Source of the DNA: Candidatus Uhrbacteria bacterium
GTDB lineage: Bacteria > Patescibacteriota > Patescibacteriia > UBA9934 > GWF2-40-263
Direction: 5' to 3'
Assembly (NCBI GenBank): GCA_013204385.1
Contig: JABMNY010000043.1
Coordinates: 1-33,747 of the forward strand
Length of the DNA: 33,747 nt
The notes below the pieces were generated by a model. The model saw only the letters and a list, made by a program, of their open reading frames with translations. It did no database searches and was not told the DNA's origin. The position numbers and the translations under genes were made by a program. Position 1 is the stretch's first letter, and each line of letters begins with the position of its first letter. Below, piece by piece: positions 13,596 through 19,589 of the stretch.

Positions 13596-14339
13596 CTATG
13601 ATTGGTGTGAAGTTCTACTTCCGTGTTTGAGCATTTTAGGCATGCGTGGCTCAAGTTCATCCCAAAGGATTACATGATCCGCATCAATTTCCGCAAAATA
13701 GTCTTCTGAGTCTAGATTGACTTCTCCTTTTGTATGAATTTTGTCACCAACAGAAATTACTGATTCATCCGTCTCTACTCCATCCTCATTAATGATTGTT
13801 TCTTCATCATAAGAAACAAGAATGTATTGCACGTCTTCTCCTTCCTCAAGAGGACGAAGAGACTTCACGAGAATAGTGTTCGCATCGGCATCAATTTTTA
13901 CTACCTCTCCTAGATGGAAAAATGGCTTATGCATTGAATGATCTATGATCACTCTTGCTTCGAGTGTCATCGCATCAAAATCGATTTTTCCAACAGCAAA
14001 TGCAATTTCACCTACTTCGAAAGAATCAATTGTGACTTCTTCGCTCTCTTCCACAAATTTTGTGTCAGTAGAATATTGAATCTGAATTGAAGCTCCCTCT
14101 GTTACTCCCGTATTTTCGGTTCGTACTTTAGAAACTCGCTCAATCGTTCCTCCGATCGTTCCCGTCCCATCTCCATTATCTAAAATAGAGACGATCTCAA
14201 ATGCGATTGCTGGAGGTCGATCGGTTGAATGAAGTACTTCATTCTCATGAGCAAATGCCGAAGCCGAAGGAACAAGCACCATGGACGCAAGCGCAAAGAG
14301 TGCTATAGGCATCCGAAACGTTTTTAAGATATTTGACAT
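13596..14339 (-). CDS. Secreted DUF5666-like protein of the ECF operon
   Basis: 247 residues. A signal peptide covers residues 1-30, with a hydrophobic core IALFALASMVLVPSASAFA and cleavage after AFA. The mature part is a chain of beta-strand modules with the pattern 'G.I..ID....T..V...' (EIAFAVGKIDFDAMTLEARV; LGEVVKIDADANTILVKSL; VGDKIHTKGEVN), as in DUF5666 small-barrel repeats. It ends in a short basic tail. It lies 12 bp after the DUF5667 gene and is the last of a sigma/anti-sigma-like/secreted trio, so it probably responds to, or is controlled by, the same envelope signal. No enzymatic residues are evident. The DUF number is from pattern memory, not from a search. Confidence 0.75.
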   Translation of the reverse strand: MSNILKTFRMPIALFALASMVLVPSASAFAHENEVLHSTDRPPAIAFEIVSILDNGDGTGTIGGTIERVSKVRTENTGVTEGASIQIQYSTDTKFVEESEEVTIDSFEVGEIAFAVGKIDFDAMTLEARVIIDHSMHKPFFHLGEVVKIDADANTILVKSLRPLEEGEDVQYILVSYDEETIINEDGVETDESVISVGDKIHTKGEVNLDSEDYFAEIDADHVILWDELEPRMPKMLKHGSRTSHQS

Positions 14340-14351
14340 ACTCGATGTATT

Positions 14352-15017
14352 TTATTGTCCATTGAGCGAGTCGTTCGCGCGACGACTTTTTTCAAATAGA
14401 CGCGTGAATTCTTCTTCGGAAAGCTGATGACCTTCGATGCGCTTTCGAAGTGGCTCAAGCTCTCCACTCTCCTCCTCTGAATCTAATACACGAGAAGAGA
14501 GTTCAAGGTAACGTGCGCGTTGCATAGAAAGAGATTCAATGACCCCTTCTCGCGCCTCTTGGTCAATCACTCCGTCTTCCAATGCTTGTATCGTATGCTC
14601 AAATTGGTCTGCGGCTGCATCCAGTGAGAAAGGTACGCTATTAGGGTGGTTTGGAAGGAAGTGTTCTCCTTCTTGTAATCGACGTCTCATCATGTTGGCA
14701 TGAAATTCTGCCCGTGACTCTGGTGATCGATGAAAACCTTGTTGCAGTGTTTCCATTCCATTCTTCACAAAATACAACGGATGACCATTCGTCACCTCTG
14801 GACTCTCATAGGCATACACACCTGTCCCCATGGTAAAAATCAACACGAACGAGGCTAATCCCACCATCGCAAATCGATATGTAAGAGACTTAGGTCTTGG
14901 ACACCCATACGTTTGGTCATACGCAACGGACAGCTCTGACAGTAACCGAGTCCGAAAAACCGTAGATGGAGTAATCCTACGTTTTGCTTTATTTAATTGT
15001 CGTTTGAGGAAAAACAT
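14352..15017 (-). CDS. DUF5667-type single-pass membrane protein, possible anti-sigma factor
   Basis: 221 residues. A basic N-terminal cytoplasmic part of about 45 residues (FLKRQLNKAKRRITPSTVFR) precedes one membrane helix (about 48-68, FAMVGLASFVLIFTMGTGV). The extracytoplasmic part begins YESPEVTNGHPLYFVKNGME, typical of DUF5667, followed by long helices rich in Arg and Glu. Its first 25 bases overlap the ECF sigma gene, so the two are coupled, as sigma/anti-sigma pairs often are. No classic zinc anti-sigma (HxxxCxxC) motif is present, so the anti-sigma role is inference from position and topology. Confidence 0.75.
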   Translation of the reverse strand: MFFLKRQLNKAKRRITPSTVFRTRLLSELSVAYDQTYGCPRPKSLTYRFAMVGLASFVLIFTMGTGVYAYESPEVTNGHPLYFVKNGMETLQQGFHRSPESRAEFHANMMRRRLQEGEHFLPNHPNSVPFSLDAAADQFEHTIQALEDGVIDQEAREGVIESLSMQRARYLELSSRVLDSEEESGELEPLRKRIEGHQLSEEEFTRLFEKSRRANDSLNGQ

Positions 15018-15490
15018 AATTTGAGTTTTTTCATGGCACGATGGGTGGCGACTTTTAATGCATCCGTCGTCTTTTCAAGAATGTGCGCCATTTCTTTATA
15101 CGAGTACCCCTCGAGGTACTTCATGGTTACGAGACGTCGTTCATTTTTGGGAAGCGTCTCTAGCGCTGCATACAGTTTCATATCTTCTTCATGGCGCTCA
15201 AACACCTTTCTTCCATCATCTCCCACAAGAGAAAAAGCGACATCTTCAAGATCGACATTCTGTTTTTGGTCACGGAAATAATTGGCAAGATGATTATGAG
15301 CGATTCTATAAATCCAAGCCGATTGTGAAATGGTTGGATCGTATTTATGAAAGTGTTTCAGAGCCTTCATAAAAATCTCTGAAACCAAATCCTCTGTGAC
15401 CGTTTCATTTCGCCCAACACGAAAAAAGACGTATCTGTAGATACGATCTATATTTACCTTATAAAATTGTTCAAACGCGTGTTTATCCAT
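14993..15490 (-). CDS. ECF-type RNA polymerase sigma-70 factor
   Basis: A 165-residue alternative sigma factor of the extracytoplasmic function group. Region 2 covers about 5-75: EQFYKVNIDRIYRYVFFRVG, DLVSEIFMKALKHF with the -10 recognition helix, and SQSAWIYRIAHNHLANYFRD. Region 4 covers about 105-158: LPKNERRLVTMKYLEGYSYK, then the helix-turn-helix KEMAHILEKTTDALKVATHR that reads the -35. The linker is short and acidic, and there is no region 1 or 3. It is followed by an overlapping DUF5667 membrane protein and a secreted DUF5666 protein, which suggests envelope sensing. An ATTATG/CATAAT box 9 nt before the ATG hints at a leaderless start. Confidence 0.93.
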   Translation of the reverse strand: MDKHAFEQFYKVNIDRIYRYVFFRVGRNETVTEDLVSEIFMKALKHFHKYDPTISQSAWIYRIAHNHLANYFRDQKQNVDLEDVAFSLVGDDGRKVFERHEEDMKLYAALETLPKNERRLVTMKYLEGYSYKEMAHILEKTTDALKVATHRAMKKLKLCFSSNDN

Positions 15491-15499
15491 GCGCCAGCT

Positions 15500-15505
15500 A
15501 TTATG
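15500..15505 (-). promoter_or_regulatory. Possible -10 box of the ECF sigma gene
   Basis: CATAAT on the minus strand with a 9-nt gap to the ATG at 15490, the same geometry as the cysS promoter. No -35 and no TGn extension, so evidence is weak. Confidence 0.3.
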
Positions 15506-15567
15506 CTCTATCTCTCATACCCATCCATCTATGAAACGTAACGAAAAGACGCGCTTTTGCAGAGGAC

Positions 15568-16125
15568 TCAGTCGTCTTTGTCGCCTGCGCCAAATACCGC
15601 CATCGCGAGAACTGGCAGTGTCACCCATGCAGCTTTTGCAATATCCCCCATAAAAATGGCCTGTGTGATAGGTGAAAGCACACTCGCTAAATCCGCCGGA
15701 AAGAATGAGAGTGTTACGCTTATTAACAAACCAACGTGCAAAAATGAATAGATCATCACCTGCCAAAACTTTCCTTGTTTTGAGCCATTATGACTAAATG
15801 CATTAATAAGAGCAGAGTGGGAAAGAAAGAAAAAAAGCAGAATAAACACCCCTAAGAAAAACGAGATACGTAGAGCGAAGGTGTCATTCACTGAAATCCC
15901 TGCTTTGAACTCTGTTAAGAACGGCATCTGATTCACAATCGCAAGGGCCATGTAAATAGACACAAGAATCACAATGATCCGATCTCTCCCTAAAGAAATT
16001 CCATAAATGAGCGATGCAACAACAAAGAACAGGATGATAAACAAATCCCATGATGGCTGAAGCCAATTTACATTATTCACCGCCGCCAAGACGGTTTCTT
16101 GATCAAAAATCGCAGTTTGAATCAT
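15568..16125 (-). CDS. Unknown multi-pass membrane protein
   Basis: 185 residues with about five hydrophobic helices: WDLFIILFFVVASLIYGISL, IIVILVSIYMALAIVNQM, ISFFLGVFILLFFFLSHSAL, VMIYSFLHVGLLISVTLSFF and AAWVTLPVLAMAVFG. A short extracellular-like N-terminus and an acidic C-terminus (GAGDKDD) flank them. No transporter or enzyme signature is visible. The start codon abuts one arm of a long inverted repeat (16126-16260), which puts its promoter inside or beyond that element. It ends shortly before the ECF sigma gene on the same strand (gap of about 77 bp), so read-through is possible. Confidence 0.8.
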   Translation of the reverse strand: MIQTAIFDQETVLAAVNNVNWLQPSWDLFIILFFVVASLIYGISLGRDRIIVILVSIYMALAIVNQMPFLTEFKAGISVNDTFALRISFFLGVFILLFFFLSHSALINAFSHNGSKQGKFWQVMIYSFLHVGLLISVTLSFFPADLASVLSPITQAIFMGDIAKAAWVTLPVLAMAVFGAGDKDD

Positions 16126-16260
16126 ACTCAGTAAAACAACTTCGAATTGGGTTCACTTAAGTACACCCAATGGAGGCTGAAAAATTCTATAGACTACTGA
16201 GAGGATAAAATCTTTTCTTGTTCATGACAAAAAGATTGTCGAAGTAGTTTTACTGAGCAT
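16126..16260. repeat. Inverted-repeat element (MITE-like or large hairpin)
   Basis: The left arm ACTCAGTAAAACAACTTCGA (16126-16145) is the near-perfect reverse complement of the right arm TCGAAGTAGTTTTACTGAGC (16239-16258), with two mismatches in 20. Just inside the left arm is a second palindrome, ATTGGGT...ACCCAAT (16146-16171). No gene is coded inside. The arms lie exactly between the membrane-protein start codon and a region upstream of the lipoprotein terminator. Confidence 0.55.
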
Positions 16261-16378
16261 ATCCTCCTAGATATAGAAGTAGTATATCACGTTGGAGAAA
16301 AAATAAGGTAAAAGAAACACCCCACCGACAGCAAGCCACCAGTGAGGTGAATCTTGCCGTAGGCGGGGTCAGCGCGGG
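16261..16378. other. Intergenic stretch holding a terminator for the lipoprotein gene
   Basis: No gene is seen. The right part holds a hairpin, ACCCC (16319-16323) with GGGGT (16365-16369), and inside it GCAAG (16331-16335) with CTTGC (16353-16357). On the minus strand a T-rich tract (TTTCTTTTACC...) follows, so it probably ends the lipoprotein transcript. Confidence 0.5.
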
Positions 16379-16864
16379 CTAGTTGAGGTTGTAGGGACCG
16401 AGGGAGCTCGGGTTGGGGTACTCGTCGCGCGAGCTGTAGATGTAGACCCAGAGATCCTCGAAACAATCATCTGCCTCTCCACCAATCTTGTTGCTATCAC
16501 CCCATGGGTTGCAGTAGACAACTGGCGCGGCCTGCGGATCAATCGCGACAGCAGGCAAACCGTAGCGAGGTGTGACTGAAGCATCACAGTAAACTTCAAT
16601 CAATTCGTCCGCCCCACCGTAGAGTTTGACCGCTCGGCTGGGGTCAGAGACGTCTTCGTAGTACGAAGCACTCCAGCTTGCCCCCCCATCATCGGAAGTC
16701 TGGAAACTGCAATACCCGGTCTGGATCTCGACCCAGGCGGCCCGCGGTCCAGTGTAGTTGGTGGGGTCGTTGCTGTTGTTGCTGTTGCCAGCATCAACAG
16801 ACTCAACCTCCATGGGTTGACAGCCAACGGTCAACAAAGAGAGAAGTATATAAGACAAACGCAT
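16379..16864 (-). CDS. Putative lipoprotein with one Asp-box-like motif
   Basis: The start at 16864 (161 residues) is chosen because GGAG lies 7 bases upstream and the product then begins with a normal lipoprotein signal, MRLSYILLSLLTVGC (lipobox LTVGC, C15). The 30 residues upstream in the same frame overlap the promoter and are not credible. The mature part has an Asn/Ser-rich linker (NSNNSNDPTN) and four further cysteines (YCSF, YCDA, YCNP, DCFED), probably forming two disulfides, and contains SDDGGASW, an Asp-box-like motif. The gene is more GC-rich than its neighbours and has its own TTGACA promoter and terminator. No family is recognised; a small secreted domain exposed on the surface is likely. 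Confidence 0.7.
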   Translation of the reverse strand: MRLSYILLSLLTVGCQPMEVESVDAGNSNNSNDPTNYTGPRAAWVEIQTGYCSFQTSDDGGASWSASYYEDVSDPSRAVKLYGGADELIEVYCDASVTPRYGLPAVAIDPQAAPVVYCNPWGDSNKIGGEADDCFEDLWVYIYSSRDEYPNPSSLGPYNLN

Positions 16865-16901
16865 TTGGGACTCCATACAATAACAAGTGCAGGAAAATCG
16901 C

Positions 16902-16925
16902 AACTTGCTGTCATGATGACAAGTT
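16902..16925 (-). promoter_or_regulatory. Dyad at the lipoprotein transcription start (possible operator or 5' hairpin)
   Basis: On the minus strand AACTTG...CAAGTT encloses TGTCA/TGACA with a central 3-nt loop. It overlaps the predicted start point (about 16919), so it could be an operator or a hairpin at the 5' end of the mRNA. Confidence 0.4.
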
Positions 16926-16954
16926 AATCTACCACAAAAACACCACATTGTCAA
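16926..16954 (-). promoter_or_regulatory. Promoter of the lipoprotein gene
   Basis: TTGACA (16949-16954), a 17-nt spacer and TAGATT (16926-16931) on the minus strand. The leader is about 55 nt and holds a dyad and the SD. Confidence 0.7.
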
Positions 16955-16975
16955 TGGTTTATGATAGATAGATAC

Positions 16976-17003
16976 AAAAAATAGCCTTAATCGGCTATTT
17001 TTT
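16976..17003. terminator. Terminator after the ftsL-like gene
   Basis: AAAAAATAGCC (16976-16986) and GGCTATTTTTT (16993-17003) with a 6-nt loop. T-runs occur on both strands. It ends the mraZ-rsmH-ftsL transcript only 22 bp before the lipoprotein promoter. Confidence 0.85.
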
Positions 17004-17030
17004 CAGAACTGAGCTTTGATGGTTTTTACG

Positions 17031-17396
17031 CTACTGAGCCATCGCAAATGTTGGTTTTGTGCCGTCGATGTAATTTGGCATTTCTGCTTTGATGAACCCA
17101 AGCATTTGTACAGACTCTGCAACATCGTTGAGAGACTGTGCCTTTCGTGTTTCAAGTTCTAAATTCTGATTCAAGAGCGAAAGTTCGTGAACCTGTGTTT
17201 CAAGATCTCGAATCTCATATCCCTTGGAGATTGTTGCGTTCACTTGAACGATATAAGACACCACTAGGAGTCCAAGAATAGCCAAAGAAATGATATTGAG
17301 AGCAACCACATGATCACGCACCCACGTTCGAATCGAAATACGATTTGAAACATGAACGGGCGAAAACGCAGCGGATTGTATTGCAACTGTGGACAT
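17031..17396 (-). CDS. ftsL: FtsL-like cell-division protein
   Basis: A 121-residue bitopic membrane protein. A short basic cytoplasmic part of about 30 residues is followed by one membrane helix (about 33-52, NIISLAILGLLVVSYIVQVN) and a coiled coil (GYEIRDLETQVHELSLLNQN, then LELETRKAQSLNDVAESVQM). This is the plan of FtsL/FtsB-type division proteins, which bridge the divisome to the cell-wall synthases. Sequence in this family is poorly conserved, so the call depends on the position directly after rsmH, where ftsL normally lies. The expected next genes (ftsI, mur genes) are missing; a terminator follows instead. No SD is seen. Confidence 0.75.
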   Translation of the reverse strand: MSTVAIQSAAFSPVHVSNRISIRTWVRDHVVALNIISLAILGLLVVSYIVQVNATISKGYEIRDLETQVHELSLLNQNLELETRKAQSLNDVAESVQMLGFIKAEMPNYIDGTKPTFAMAQ

Positions 17397-17440: not shown

Positions 17441-18310
17441 TTAATTAAGACGTTCTGCCACACGCAATTTTGCACTTCGAGAACGAGGGTTCTCTAACTG
17501 CTCTTCACGTGAGGCAACAACAGGACGCTTCGTGACTACCTTGAGGGCCGGGGTCCCTTTGAAAAATTGTTTGATAATTCGGTCCTCAAGGGAGTGGAAG
17601 CTCAAAATGGCCAATCGACCACCGGGAGTCAGTAAGTTCACACAAATTGGGAGTGCACGCTCTAATTCGCCAAATTCATCGTTCACAGCGATTCTCAAGG
17701 CTTGAAACACTTGTGTTGCGGGATGCGTCTTGCCATGTTGATGCTTAAGTCCAGCAATCAAATTAGCAAGTTCCCCTGTACGAACAATTGGAGTTTCAGC
17801 TCGAGATGTCACGATTAACTGAGCGATTGGACGTGCGTCCTTTTCTTCACCATACAGTCTAAAAATGCGCGCTAATTCGTCTACTGACCACTCATTCACA
17901 ATCACCTCTGCGGTGAGCGTTTGAGTGCGGTCATAGCGCATGTCGAGCGGTCCATCGGACCGAAAGGAGAACCCACGTTCCGGATCATCCACATGAACTG
18001 AGGAAAATCCAAGATCTAAAAGTATTCCATTGACTTGCGTAAAACCGTACGTTTCAGCGTGTTTATCCATGTTGGCGTAGCTGTCGCATACGAGCGTCAC
18101 AGCATCACCGAATCCAGAAAGGCGTTCGCGCGCACGTTCAAGATTGGCTGCATCACGATCGATGCCTAGGAGACGGCCGCCAGGAAGGACATGTGACAAT
18201 AGGGTCGTCGCATGCCCTCCCAGCCCCACAGTGCCGTCTATCAATAGATGACTCGGCTCCGGTTTGAGATAGTTGCTTACCTCAGTAAGAAGGACAGGTT
18301 TGTGTTCCAT
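17441..18310 (-). CDS. rsmH: 16S rRNA (cytosine-1402-N4)-methyltransferase RsmH
   Basis: SAM-dependent methyltransferase that modifies C1402 of 16S rRNA, formerly MraW. The start is set at 18310 (289 residues), as MEHKPVLLTEVSNYL is the family N-terminus and GAAGGAGG lies 8 nt upstream; the frame extends to 18355 but that part is not family-like. The SAM motif is DGTVGLGGHA (near 24-33), followed by LGIDRDAANLERA and GILLDLGFSSVHVDDPERGF, then RSDGPLDMRYD, and near the end GGRLAILSFHSLEDRIIKQF. Length is normal (about 300). It is the second gene of a short dcw operon and is the only clearly core gene here with a strong SD. Confidence 0.96.
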   Translation of the reverse strand: MEHKPVLLTEVSNYLKPEPSHLLIDGTVGLGGHATTLLSHVLPGGRLLGIDRDAANLERARERLSGFGDAVTLVCDSYANMDKHAETYGFTQVNGILLDLGFSSVHVDDPERGFSFRSDGPLDMRYDRTQTLTAEVIVNEWSVDELARIFRLYGEEKDARPIAQLIVTSRAETPIVRTGELANLIAGLKHQHGKTHPATQVFQALRIAVNDEFGELERALPICVNLLTPGGRLAILSFHSLEDRIIKQFFKGTPALKVVTKRPVVASREEQLENPRSRSAKLRVAERLN

Positions 18311-18414
18311 AAATATGGCCTCCTTCTTATTAGTTGCCGAAGATTGAGGTTCCATTCAGGGAAAAAGGTTCAATTAAACCCCACATGGAACTTCAAACTT
18401 CGACATCCAATGAA

Positions 18415-18846
18415 TTAGATTCCGAGTTCTCCTAACTTTTCCGCGACCGCATCTGCATCGCTTTCGACCTTTTTCTTATATGACTCCCATTTCTCTTCAT
18501 CCCAAATCTCGAGCCGATCATACAGACCAGCGATCACAGACATTTTCTTCAACCCTGCGTACTGACGCAGATACTCTGGGAGGACAACTCTTCCCTGTTT
18601 GTCTAACTCCACGTCCATTGCACCCGCAAGCATGAGTCGGGCGAAGGCGCGTGAATTAGATTGCCCCAGGGGCAAACTCGCAAGCTTTTGCGCAAGCTTA
18701 CCCCACTCCTCCTTGGGGAACAGGAATAGAGATGAATCTAATCCTCGTGTGACAACGGCACCCTTTACAAGACTTTTGCGAAACTTTGAGGGAATCGCAA
18801 GACGTCCTTTGTCATCAATCGCATGTTTATACTCGCCTATAAACAT
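18415..18846 (-). CDS. mraZ: MraZ, DNA-binding regulator of the dcw cluster
   Basis: 143 residues made of two SpoVT/AbrB-like half-barrels. The first is FIGEYKHAIDDKGRLAIPSK (about 2-21), with the DNA-contacting KFRKSL. The second is DVELDKQGRVVLPEYLRQYA (about 78-97). The segment IAGLYDRLEIWDEEKWESYK closes the family pattern. MraZ binds GTGG-type direct repeats upstream of its own gene and represses the cell-division/cell-wall operon in E. coli. Here eight candidate boxes lie upstream (18915-18989). The gene is followed by rsmH and an ftsL-like gene. It lacks an SD, and its start is the family-typical MFIGEY. Confidence 0.96.
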   Translation of the reverse strand: MFIGEYKHAIDDKGRLAIPSKFRKSLVKGAVVTRGLDSSLFLFPKEEWGKLAQKLASLPLGQSNSRAFARLMLAGAMDVELDKQGRVVLPEYLRQYAGLKKMSVIAGLYDRLEIWDEEKWESYKKKVESDADAVAEKLGELGI

Positions 18847-18914
18847 AATGGGCCGTATCTCAAGTGGGAATTAAATAAAAGTGAGCACCGCTGAAAATCA
18901 TTTCTCAGCAATCC

Positions 18915-18989
18915 CCACTTTTCTCCACCTGCAACCATTCTATTCCACCAATTACCACTGGTCAACCAAACTTACCCACACCCACCCAA
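18915..18989 (-). promoter_or_regulatory. MraZ operator: eight boxes in 10-bp phase
   Basis: On the plus strand CCAC or a near match occurs at 18915, 18925, 18935 (CCAT), 18945 and 18955, each exactly 10 bp apart. After an 11-bp step three more follow at 18966 (CCAA), 18976 (CCAC) and 18986 (CCAA). On the coding strand these are GTGG boxes, the known MraZ target type. They end about 70 bp before mraZ and also lie just upstream of the divergent methyltransferase gene. Confidence 0.75.
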
Positions 18990-19022
18990 ACCCAATCTCC
19001 ATTTTTGAGTTAAAAAATGGGA

Positions 19023-19028
19023 TACAAT
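19023..19028 (+). promoter_or_regulatory. Possible -10 box of the methyltransferase gene
   Basis: TACAAT, 9 nt before the ATG at 19038, no good -35. Same geometry as cysS. It would overlap the longer ATG at 19017, favouring the later start. Confidence 0.35.
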
Positions 19029-19037
19029 TTATTTACT

Positions 19038-19589
19038 ATGAATACTTCCTTTTTTATACTCATTCTTTTGCTCACATTTTCTATTATCGCCTCGATTGCC
19101 TCCTTGACCCTTCTCATCCATCTTCTTTTTCCGATTCTTGCCGGTGGAGGACCTTATGTCCCCTCAAGTTTAGAGGAGGTTCAGATAATGATTCAACTCG
19201 CTGAAATCACTGATAGGGACCATGTCGCAGACCTTGGTTCAGGTGACGGACGAGTCGTCATCGCCGCAGCACAAGCTGGGGCGCGACACTGTGTGGGATA
19301 CGAGATCTATCCATCACTTGTAAGAACCGCATACAAAAATATTGCAGAACACAATCTTGGAGACCGTGTGCACATTAAAAAGCAATCGATGTGGGATGCG
19401 GATCTCTCGGGTATATCTGTCGTCTTCCTCTTTCAAATCCCCTATGCCCTCGATCGCATAAAAAAACTCCTTGAGATTCAACTGCCACCTGGAACAAGAA
19501 TCATCTCAAACAGTTTCAAAATACCCGGCTGGGAACCGAATATAACGAAAGGAACAATTCATCTCTATACAATAAAAGACGCTTCATAG
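19038..19589 (+). CDS. Membrane-anchored class I SAM-dependent methyltransferase
   Basis: 183 residues from ATG 19038. An N-terminal membrane helix (about 4-30, FFILILLLTFSIIASIASLT) continues into a short loop with GGGPYVPSS. The methyltransferase core has motif I, HVADLGSGDGRVVIAAAQ (about 61-78), then CVGYEIYPSLV (motif II, Glu binding the ribose). IFQIPYAL-like text (VVFLFQIPYALDRIKKLL) and GTRIISNSFKIPGW follow. Small Fkbm-like or RMT-like proteins of this plan occur in many bacteria, but the substrate is unknown. The earlier ATG at 19017 would place the -10 box inside the coding region. It is divergent from mraZ across the MraZ boxes, so MraZ may influence it. Confidence 0.85.
   Translation: MNTSFFILILLLTFSIIASIASLTLLIHLLFPILAGGGPYVPSSLEEVQIMIQLAEITDRDHVADLGSGDGRVVIAAAQAGARHCVGYEIYPSLVRTAYKNIAEHNLGDRVHIKKQSMWDADLSGISVVFLFQIPYALDRIKKLLEIQLPPGTRIISNSFKIPGWEPNITKGTIHLYTIKDAS

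Follow-up and report, generated by a model that had tools for sequence, protein, structure and literature searches.

A putative MraZ operator across the mraZ promoter of Candidatus Uhrbacteria, whose last box forms one arm of a conserved leader RNA hairpin and candidate terminator

The control of cell division by MraZ has so far been studied in few culturable bacteria, and the locus described here belongs to a family of uncultured bacteria with small genomes. The window, i.e., the whole stretch of 33,747 nucleotides of Candidatus Uhrbacteria DNA that was analysed, is one part of a genome of 1.05 Mb assembled in 48 contigs. Upstream of mraZ, it carries a long run of CCAC-type tetramers, and this run raises a question at each of its ends. 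Toward the divergent gene, how many of the tetramers belong to an operator of MraZ? An original prediction had counted eight boxes in strict 10-bp phase, conceivably enough to wrap an MraZ ring completely, and had proposed the divergent methyltransferase gene as a member of the regulon. Toward mraZ, what is the role of the inverted repeat into which the last box runs?

The gene adjacent to the boxes encodes MraZ. Its product matches PF02381 (E=2.5e-39) and TIGR00242 (142 bits, for a cut-off of 98), its predicted fold resembles the solved MraZ structures (Z 18-20), and the segments D11..R15 and D82..R86 are unchanged across 31 sequences. The closest matches are Candidatus Uhrbacteria proteins, with 94% identity to record PFEU01000016. 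The gene mraW and an ftsL-like gene follow in the dcw order (Table 1). Past mraZ-mraW-ftsL, the usual dcw genes do not continue; the minus-strand region 13596-17396 instead holds proteins for which NCBIfam has no match, together with an ECF sigma factor (14993-15490), the end of which is overlapped by a putative membrane-anchored partner.

Table 1. Coordinates of the features at the mraZ locus, as positions in the window.
Feature	Position	Strand	Remarks
FtsL-like gene	17031-17396		After mraW in dcw order; below the curated cut-off
mraW/rsmH	17441-18355		After mraZ in dcw order
mraZ	18415..18846	-	143 aa; first dcw cluster gene, presumed repressor
U-rich tail	18871..18880	-	UUUUAUUUAA; with the hairpin, predicted intrinsic terminator
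Leader RNA hairpin	18877..18922	-	5′ arm AAAAGTGGGGA, containing box 18918-18915; 3′ arm TGCTCACTTTT
Core operator (putative), four RTGG boxes	18915..18948 (18948-18945, 18938-18935, 18928-18925, 18918-18915)	-	GTGG ATGG GTGG GTGG in exact 10-bp register; on the plus strand CCAC 18915, CCAC 18925, CCAT 18935, CCAC 18945
-10 element	18937..18942	-	TAGAAT; 17 bp after the -35; ends on the AT of the ATGG box
Fifth, weaker box	18955..18958	-	In register; GTGG here (plus strand CCAC), GTGT in most relatives
-35 element	18960..18965	-	TTGACC, between boxes 5 and 6; TTGAC in 33/33
Sixth box-like tetramer	18966..18969	-	TTGG (plus strand CCAA); abuts the -35; weak
Distal box	18976..18979	-	GTGG (plus strand CCAC); family-conserved; offset -30 mostly, -31 in the window's clade
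Eighth box-like tetramer	18986..18989	-	TTGG (plus strand CCAA); TGG in 6/32 sequences, window included
Methyltransferase-like gene	19017-19589	+	Divergent from mraZ; weak methyltransferase profile matches

All eight tetramers of the original prediction are present where it had placed them. On the mraZ strand, and by increasing coordinate, they read GTGG/GTGG/ATGG/GTGG/GTGG, then TTGG/GTGG/TTGG. The strict 10-bp phase holds inside each half (five boxes from 18955 to 18915, then three boxes) and is lost across the halves, because boxes 5 and 6 are 11 bp apart. Neither five boxes in strict phase nor eight boxes with one slip appeared in any of 5000 dinucleotide shuffles of the intergenic region (0/5000 in both cases), while the distal trio alone is weaker: shuffling its TGG-rich stretch yields as many in about 0.9% of cases. 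The window also holds additional out-of-phase TGGs that had been omitted from the earlier count, for instance at 18982 and 18992.

The mraZ promoter carries a series of direct repeats of the GTG(G/T) type, at least three or four of them and one every 10 bp, and within this genome the strict four-box series is specific to the locus. The pattern RTGG-N6-RTGG-N6-RTGG-N6-RTGG has one site in the 1.05-Mb genome, upstream of mraZ. Across 43 genomes of the family, the exact four-box pattern marks mraZ almost alone, it is found there in nearly every genome that holds the region, and a reversed control pattern gave 0 matches. The only other matches were one repeat-like site in genome G012 (contig 36) and, in genome G026, tandem copies of GTGGTTAAGG adjacent to mraZ. 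A wider MraZ regulon was rejected, since no second conserved four-box site was found among these 43 genomes. We also compared 33 mraZ upstream regions, window included, in a gap-free alignment on the core, and each of the four proximal positions is RTGG in 33/33. With mraZ directly downstream, four boxes unchanged in 33 sequences and an array unique to mraZ, the comparison argues that the series is an MraZ operator, as had been predicted.

This putative operator lies on the promoter itself. The -35 and -10 elements together have 10/12 consensus matches, and the -10 takes the form TA.AAT, TATAGT or TATGAT in 33/33 sequences. From the spacing only, the mraZ start site is predicted at about 18930, so that the boxes, which span approximately -50 to +16, overlap both promoter elements as well as this start. 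The AT of the -10 belongs also to the second core box, and this double use would account for an ATGG between two GTGG neighbours. With its boxes in this place, bound MraZ would directly exclude the polymerase from the mraZ promoter.

At the other end of the core, the last box runs into an inverted repeat. The bases of this promoter-distal core box (AAAGTGGGGA) make up the 5′ arm of a hairpin, and behind the hairpin comes UUUUAUUU (18871-18922 on the minus strand, hairpin included). In the 33 family leaders, the 5′ arm starts at the GTGGGG of the last box and a U-rich tract lies past the 3′ arm. The fold has a z of -7.5; in one leader (L066), folding of a longer stretch prefers another pairing, and the score of the hairpin by itself is strong. 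Among 26 aligned leaders, 94.6% of the cells are paired, and double changes occupy 50 cells against a shuffled mean of 15.4 (0/500 shuffles), with a covariation score of 0.41 against 0.19. Sliding the partners by 1-3 columns destroys this signal. The inner seven pairs are paired at 6.7 positions on average, compared with 4.8 when the arms are swapped between sequences. Moreover, the wobble cells comprise 83 G-U and only 2 A-C, hence, by this comparative evidence, selection is acting on the RNA of the mraZ strand; a hairpin that would function as a DNA dyad or as an antisense structure is disfavoured by the same asymmetry. In the lower stem, a near-invariant G-G mismatch (18913/18886, alignment columns 10 and 43) stands beside an invariant G-U pair throughout the family, in place of full complementarity, and it is replaced by a GGA/GAA internal loop in two divergent leaders (L060 and L067).

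The distribution of the hairpin was determined with a covariance model, R1, searched in the 43 family genomes. R1 has a match in the mraZ leader in 35 of them, representing 19/19 genera of the family, and each of these genomes has a single strong one. Of the other eight genomes, two carry a divergent version (G041 and G042, leaders L067 and L060), two reach a contig edge in this region (G029 and G005) and four have no mraZ in the assembly. Nothing convincing was found in 30 other genomes of the order, where a weak pair in one genome (G065) had an E of 0.02, nor in a sample of 144 genomes of the class. The modelled hairpin is thus limited to this family, and most other sampled Patescibacteria have no comparable one. 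By eye, a comparable hairpin sits on the last box in five further leaders, an anecdotal set in which the idea recurs. By covariance model, neither the window nor ten relatives match a known RNA family, be it the mraW RNA motif (RF01746) or another Rfam entry, and the only hits, to two plant/animal miRNA models, are far below the gathering scores. The leader hairpin is a previously undescribed and strongly conserved RNA element.

What could such an element do? A U-tract comes directly after the stem. The terminator discriminant, calculated with a standard formula, reaches +11.1 in the window and is positive in 27/33 leaders, the 6 others being below the cut-off, and in 0/330 shuffled controls. 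A stable hairpin with covariation of its RNA structure is immediately followed by a U-rich tract, and this tract is kept in all 33 leaders, including four that have lost the A-U part of the stem (L059, L069, L072 and L075). Many of the other terminator-like matches in the window sit at gene ends; one of them, built much like the leader hairpin, comes after the methyltransferase gene. Upstream of the hairpin, we found no antiterminator arm and there is no room for a classical one.

We consider it probable, with room left for doubt, that the locus is under two layers of control, MraZ blocking initiation and a leader attenuator limiting elongation; in this mechanism, termination is what we infer from the hairpin and its U-tract. 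The MraZ made from the first gene would bind, at its own promoter, the 10-bp-spaced RTGG run that overlaps this promoter from the -35 through the -10 to the start site, and would block RNA polymerase, i.e., a negative autoregulation. The four proximal boxes would be the essential core, and the weak fifth box and the distal box would extend the contact over the -35 region. The transcripts that are started would carry a short leader, the first strong structure of which would be the hairpin with its U-tract. This intrinsic terminator, or attenuator, located about 55 nt into the transcript, would let only part of the transcripts pass to mraZ and to the genes behind, and this read-through may in turn be regulated. 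Ten bases (AAAGTGGGGA) would then be used twice, as an MraZ box in the DNA and as the 5′ arm of the terminator in the RNA.

A bolder proposal, which we put forward tentatively and hold for somewhat doubtful, is that of a new regulatory RNA. One hairpin-terminator, from about +10 to +55, would control elongation into the dcw cluster throughout this family of Patescibacteria, with a 5′ arm doubly coded as an MraZ box. Its read-through may depend on a signal from the cell; alternatively, the short RNA that is released (about 55 nt) may function in trans, in the way suggested for UpsM of Rhodobacter sphaeroides.

The main rival to the two-layer control accepts the MraZ operator and takes the hairpin for a stabiliser at the 5′ end of a long mRNA, blocking 5′-dependent decay, and not for a terminator. 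The location of the hairpin speaks for it. Indeed, it lies no more than some 8 nt away from the predicted 5′ end, and its position is fixed to the promoter and not to the start codon, the distance from the core to the ATG being mostly 87-127 nt and extending to 154 and 242 in L066 and L070; the lack of a visible antiterminator would also suit it. However, a stabiliser requires no U-tract, whereas the U-rich tract is kept in 33/33 leaders even where pairing is lost, and we regard this explanation as unlikely.

Between the predicted terminator and the mraZ ATG, at 18862-18872 (plus-strand coordinates), CCAC occurs on the mraZ strand in 18/33 family leaders when about 7 are expected, and GTGG occurs in this part of the leader in 0/33. 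This CCAC is an inverted box, complementary to the AGGUGG at the 5′ end of the transcript, and it could close the leader RNA or act as an inverted MraZ site.

At the distal end of the array, the relatives give partial support to more than four boxes, and to fewer than the eight of the original prediction. The fifth position is RTG[GT] in 28/33 sequences, mostly as GTGT. The sixth, which overlaps the -35 (GTGTTGAC), resembles a box in roughly half of the alignment (RTG[GT] in 14/32 at the in-phase offset of -20, TGG in 5/32 at -21); in the relatives, it is often a GTGT in strict register, overlapping TTGAC. Farther upstream, a distal RTGG is present in 29/32, at an offset of -30 in 17 and of -31 in 12. 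Since the -31 offsets cluster on the MraZ tree, window included, and the Magasanikbacteria outgroup is at -30, the extra base between the two halves is best read as a derived insertion of one base in the clade of the window, in an array that would ancestrally have been in register. As the weak fifth, the -35-overlapping and the distal positions are box-like in relatives, the family pattern appears to comprise about seven positions (i.e., the four of the core, the weak fifth, the one overlapping the -35 and the distal RTGG). On the contrary, the tetramer at 18986 is GTAC in the nearest relative (L041) and is not TGG in 26/32, and it is probably not a conserved box. In other words, the four proximal boxes and their spacing are conserved among relatives, together with a weak fifth and a distal box, and the full set of eight in one register is not.

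These data bear on the proposal that eight boxes bind all eight subunits of the MraZ ring, in a complete wrap, and control the divergent methyltransferase gene as well. The window does contain eight box-like tetramers with one slip, beyond what shuffling produces, and in a Falkowbacteria mraZ promoter (L105) eight positions, of which three are weak, keep the strict register. However, box 8 is gone in most sequences, the one-base shift of boxes 6-8 is confined to the clade of the window, and the solved MraZ complex (PDB 9sz7) has four boxes. The conservation data and this four-box complex, for the same predicted MraZ fold, argue for a four-box core with auxiliary sites over a wrap by eight subunits, which we judge very improbable. 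As for the methyltransferase gene, it adjoins mraZ in this genome only, and in 0/80 relatives. Its homologues in the same genus (48-49% identical) are located elsewhere and not at mraZ, a second copy (50% identical) exists within the same genome, and the 11 homologue loci examined have no box arrays. It thus probably lies outside the MraZ system, and its proposed place in the regulon was abandoned. The weakest rival, a DNA element in which MraZ would also bind an inverted box in the 3′ arm without any functional RNA structure, can point to the box-like AAAAGTGAGCA that this arm presents on the plus strand, but the arm has no GTGG, the inner stem varies freely in sequence and yet pairs, and nearly all wobble cells are of the G-U type when read on the mraZ strand, which leaves this explanation hardly credible.

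Other promoters in the comparison present their own variations. The Falkowbacteria promoter L105 reads GTGG GTGT GTGT GTGG ATGG TAGG GTGG GTGG in strict 10-bp register and is a better natural case of eight sites than the window, with GTGT, GTGT and TAGG as its weak positions. In five leaders (L050, L051, L053, L058 and L065), a DnaA-box-like TTATCCACA precedes the distal MraZ box by a few bases, and an input of DnaA to the dcw promoter is possible there. In nine leaders from other Patescibacteria, the MraZ boxes are followed by repeats such as GTGGGGATAA ... TGGGGATAAC or GTGGATAAC, which resemble MraZ boxes and DnaA boxes alike.

If true, the two-layer control would mean that control of initiation and attenuation share one sequence, the MraZ box being also the 5′ arm of the hairpin. 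The putative operator covers the whole promoter, and the candidate leader terminator would add a second checkpoint, at the RNA level, for cell-division genes. The family alignment also constitutes a ready set of test sequences on how the MraZ ring reads its boxes, including natural one-base shifts in phase between the distal and the proximal boxes.

How does this arrangement compare with known systems? In E. coli, the dcw cluster is repressed by the MraZ that it encodes (PMC8475190, PMC7761207). E. coli (mraZ1p / Pmra) and Burkholderia cenocepacia have, like the family described here, GTGG-type direct repeats every 10 bp before mraZ, about four boxes in number, and share the autorepression of the dcw cluster, which for our organism would follow by inference (PMC7761207); the E. 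coli sequence itself reads GTGG GTGG GTGG GGGG at 10-bp spacing before mraZ. The boxes of these two species are located downstream of the -10 and over the start site (PMC7761207), whereas the Uhrbacteria series extends through the -10 and the -35, and unlike theirs it is followed by a terminator-like hairpin of which the last box is an arm. The Mollicutes consensus AAAGTG[T/G], as quoted in PMC8475190, allows the T form, and this box core, with its GTGT variant, corresponds to the weak boxes found here. The same source reports for Mycoplasma genitalium a single site per genome, at mraZ, as in our case (PMC8475190). By its entry title, PDB 9sz7 is a cryo-EM structure of MraZ with DNA from Mycoplasma genitalium on a four-box promoter, compared with about seven conserved positions and a leader hairpin here.

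On the RNA side, the mraW RNA motif (RF01746), reported before mraW in Corynebacterium glutamicum (PMC3890552), is likewise a leader RNA, conserved and placed where the dcw region begins, and differs in that the window and ten relatives do not match it. A precedent is UpsM of Rhodobacter sphaeroides, where an intrinsic terminator in the mraZ 5′ leader, as predicted here, releases this sRNA and only about 1/100 transcripts read through (PMC5089854). UpsM measures 206 nt in a leader of 268 nt with several structured regions (PMC5089854), whereas the Uhrbacteria leader has one hairpin, which ends about 55 nt from the predicted start and is fused to the putative MraZ operator, in an unrelated phylum.
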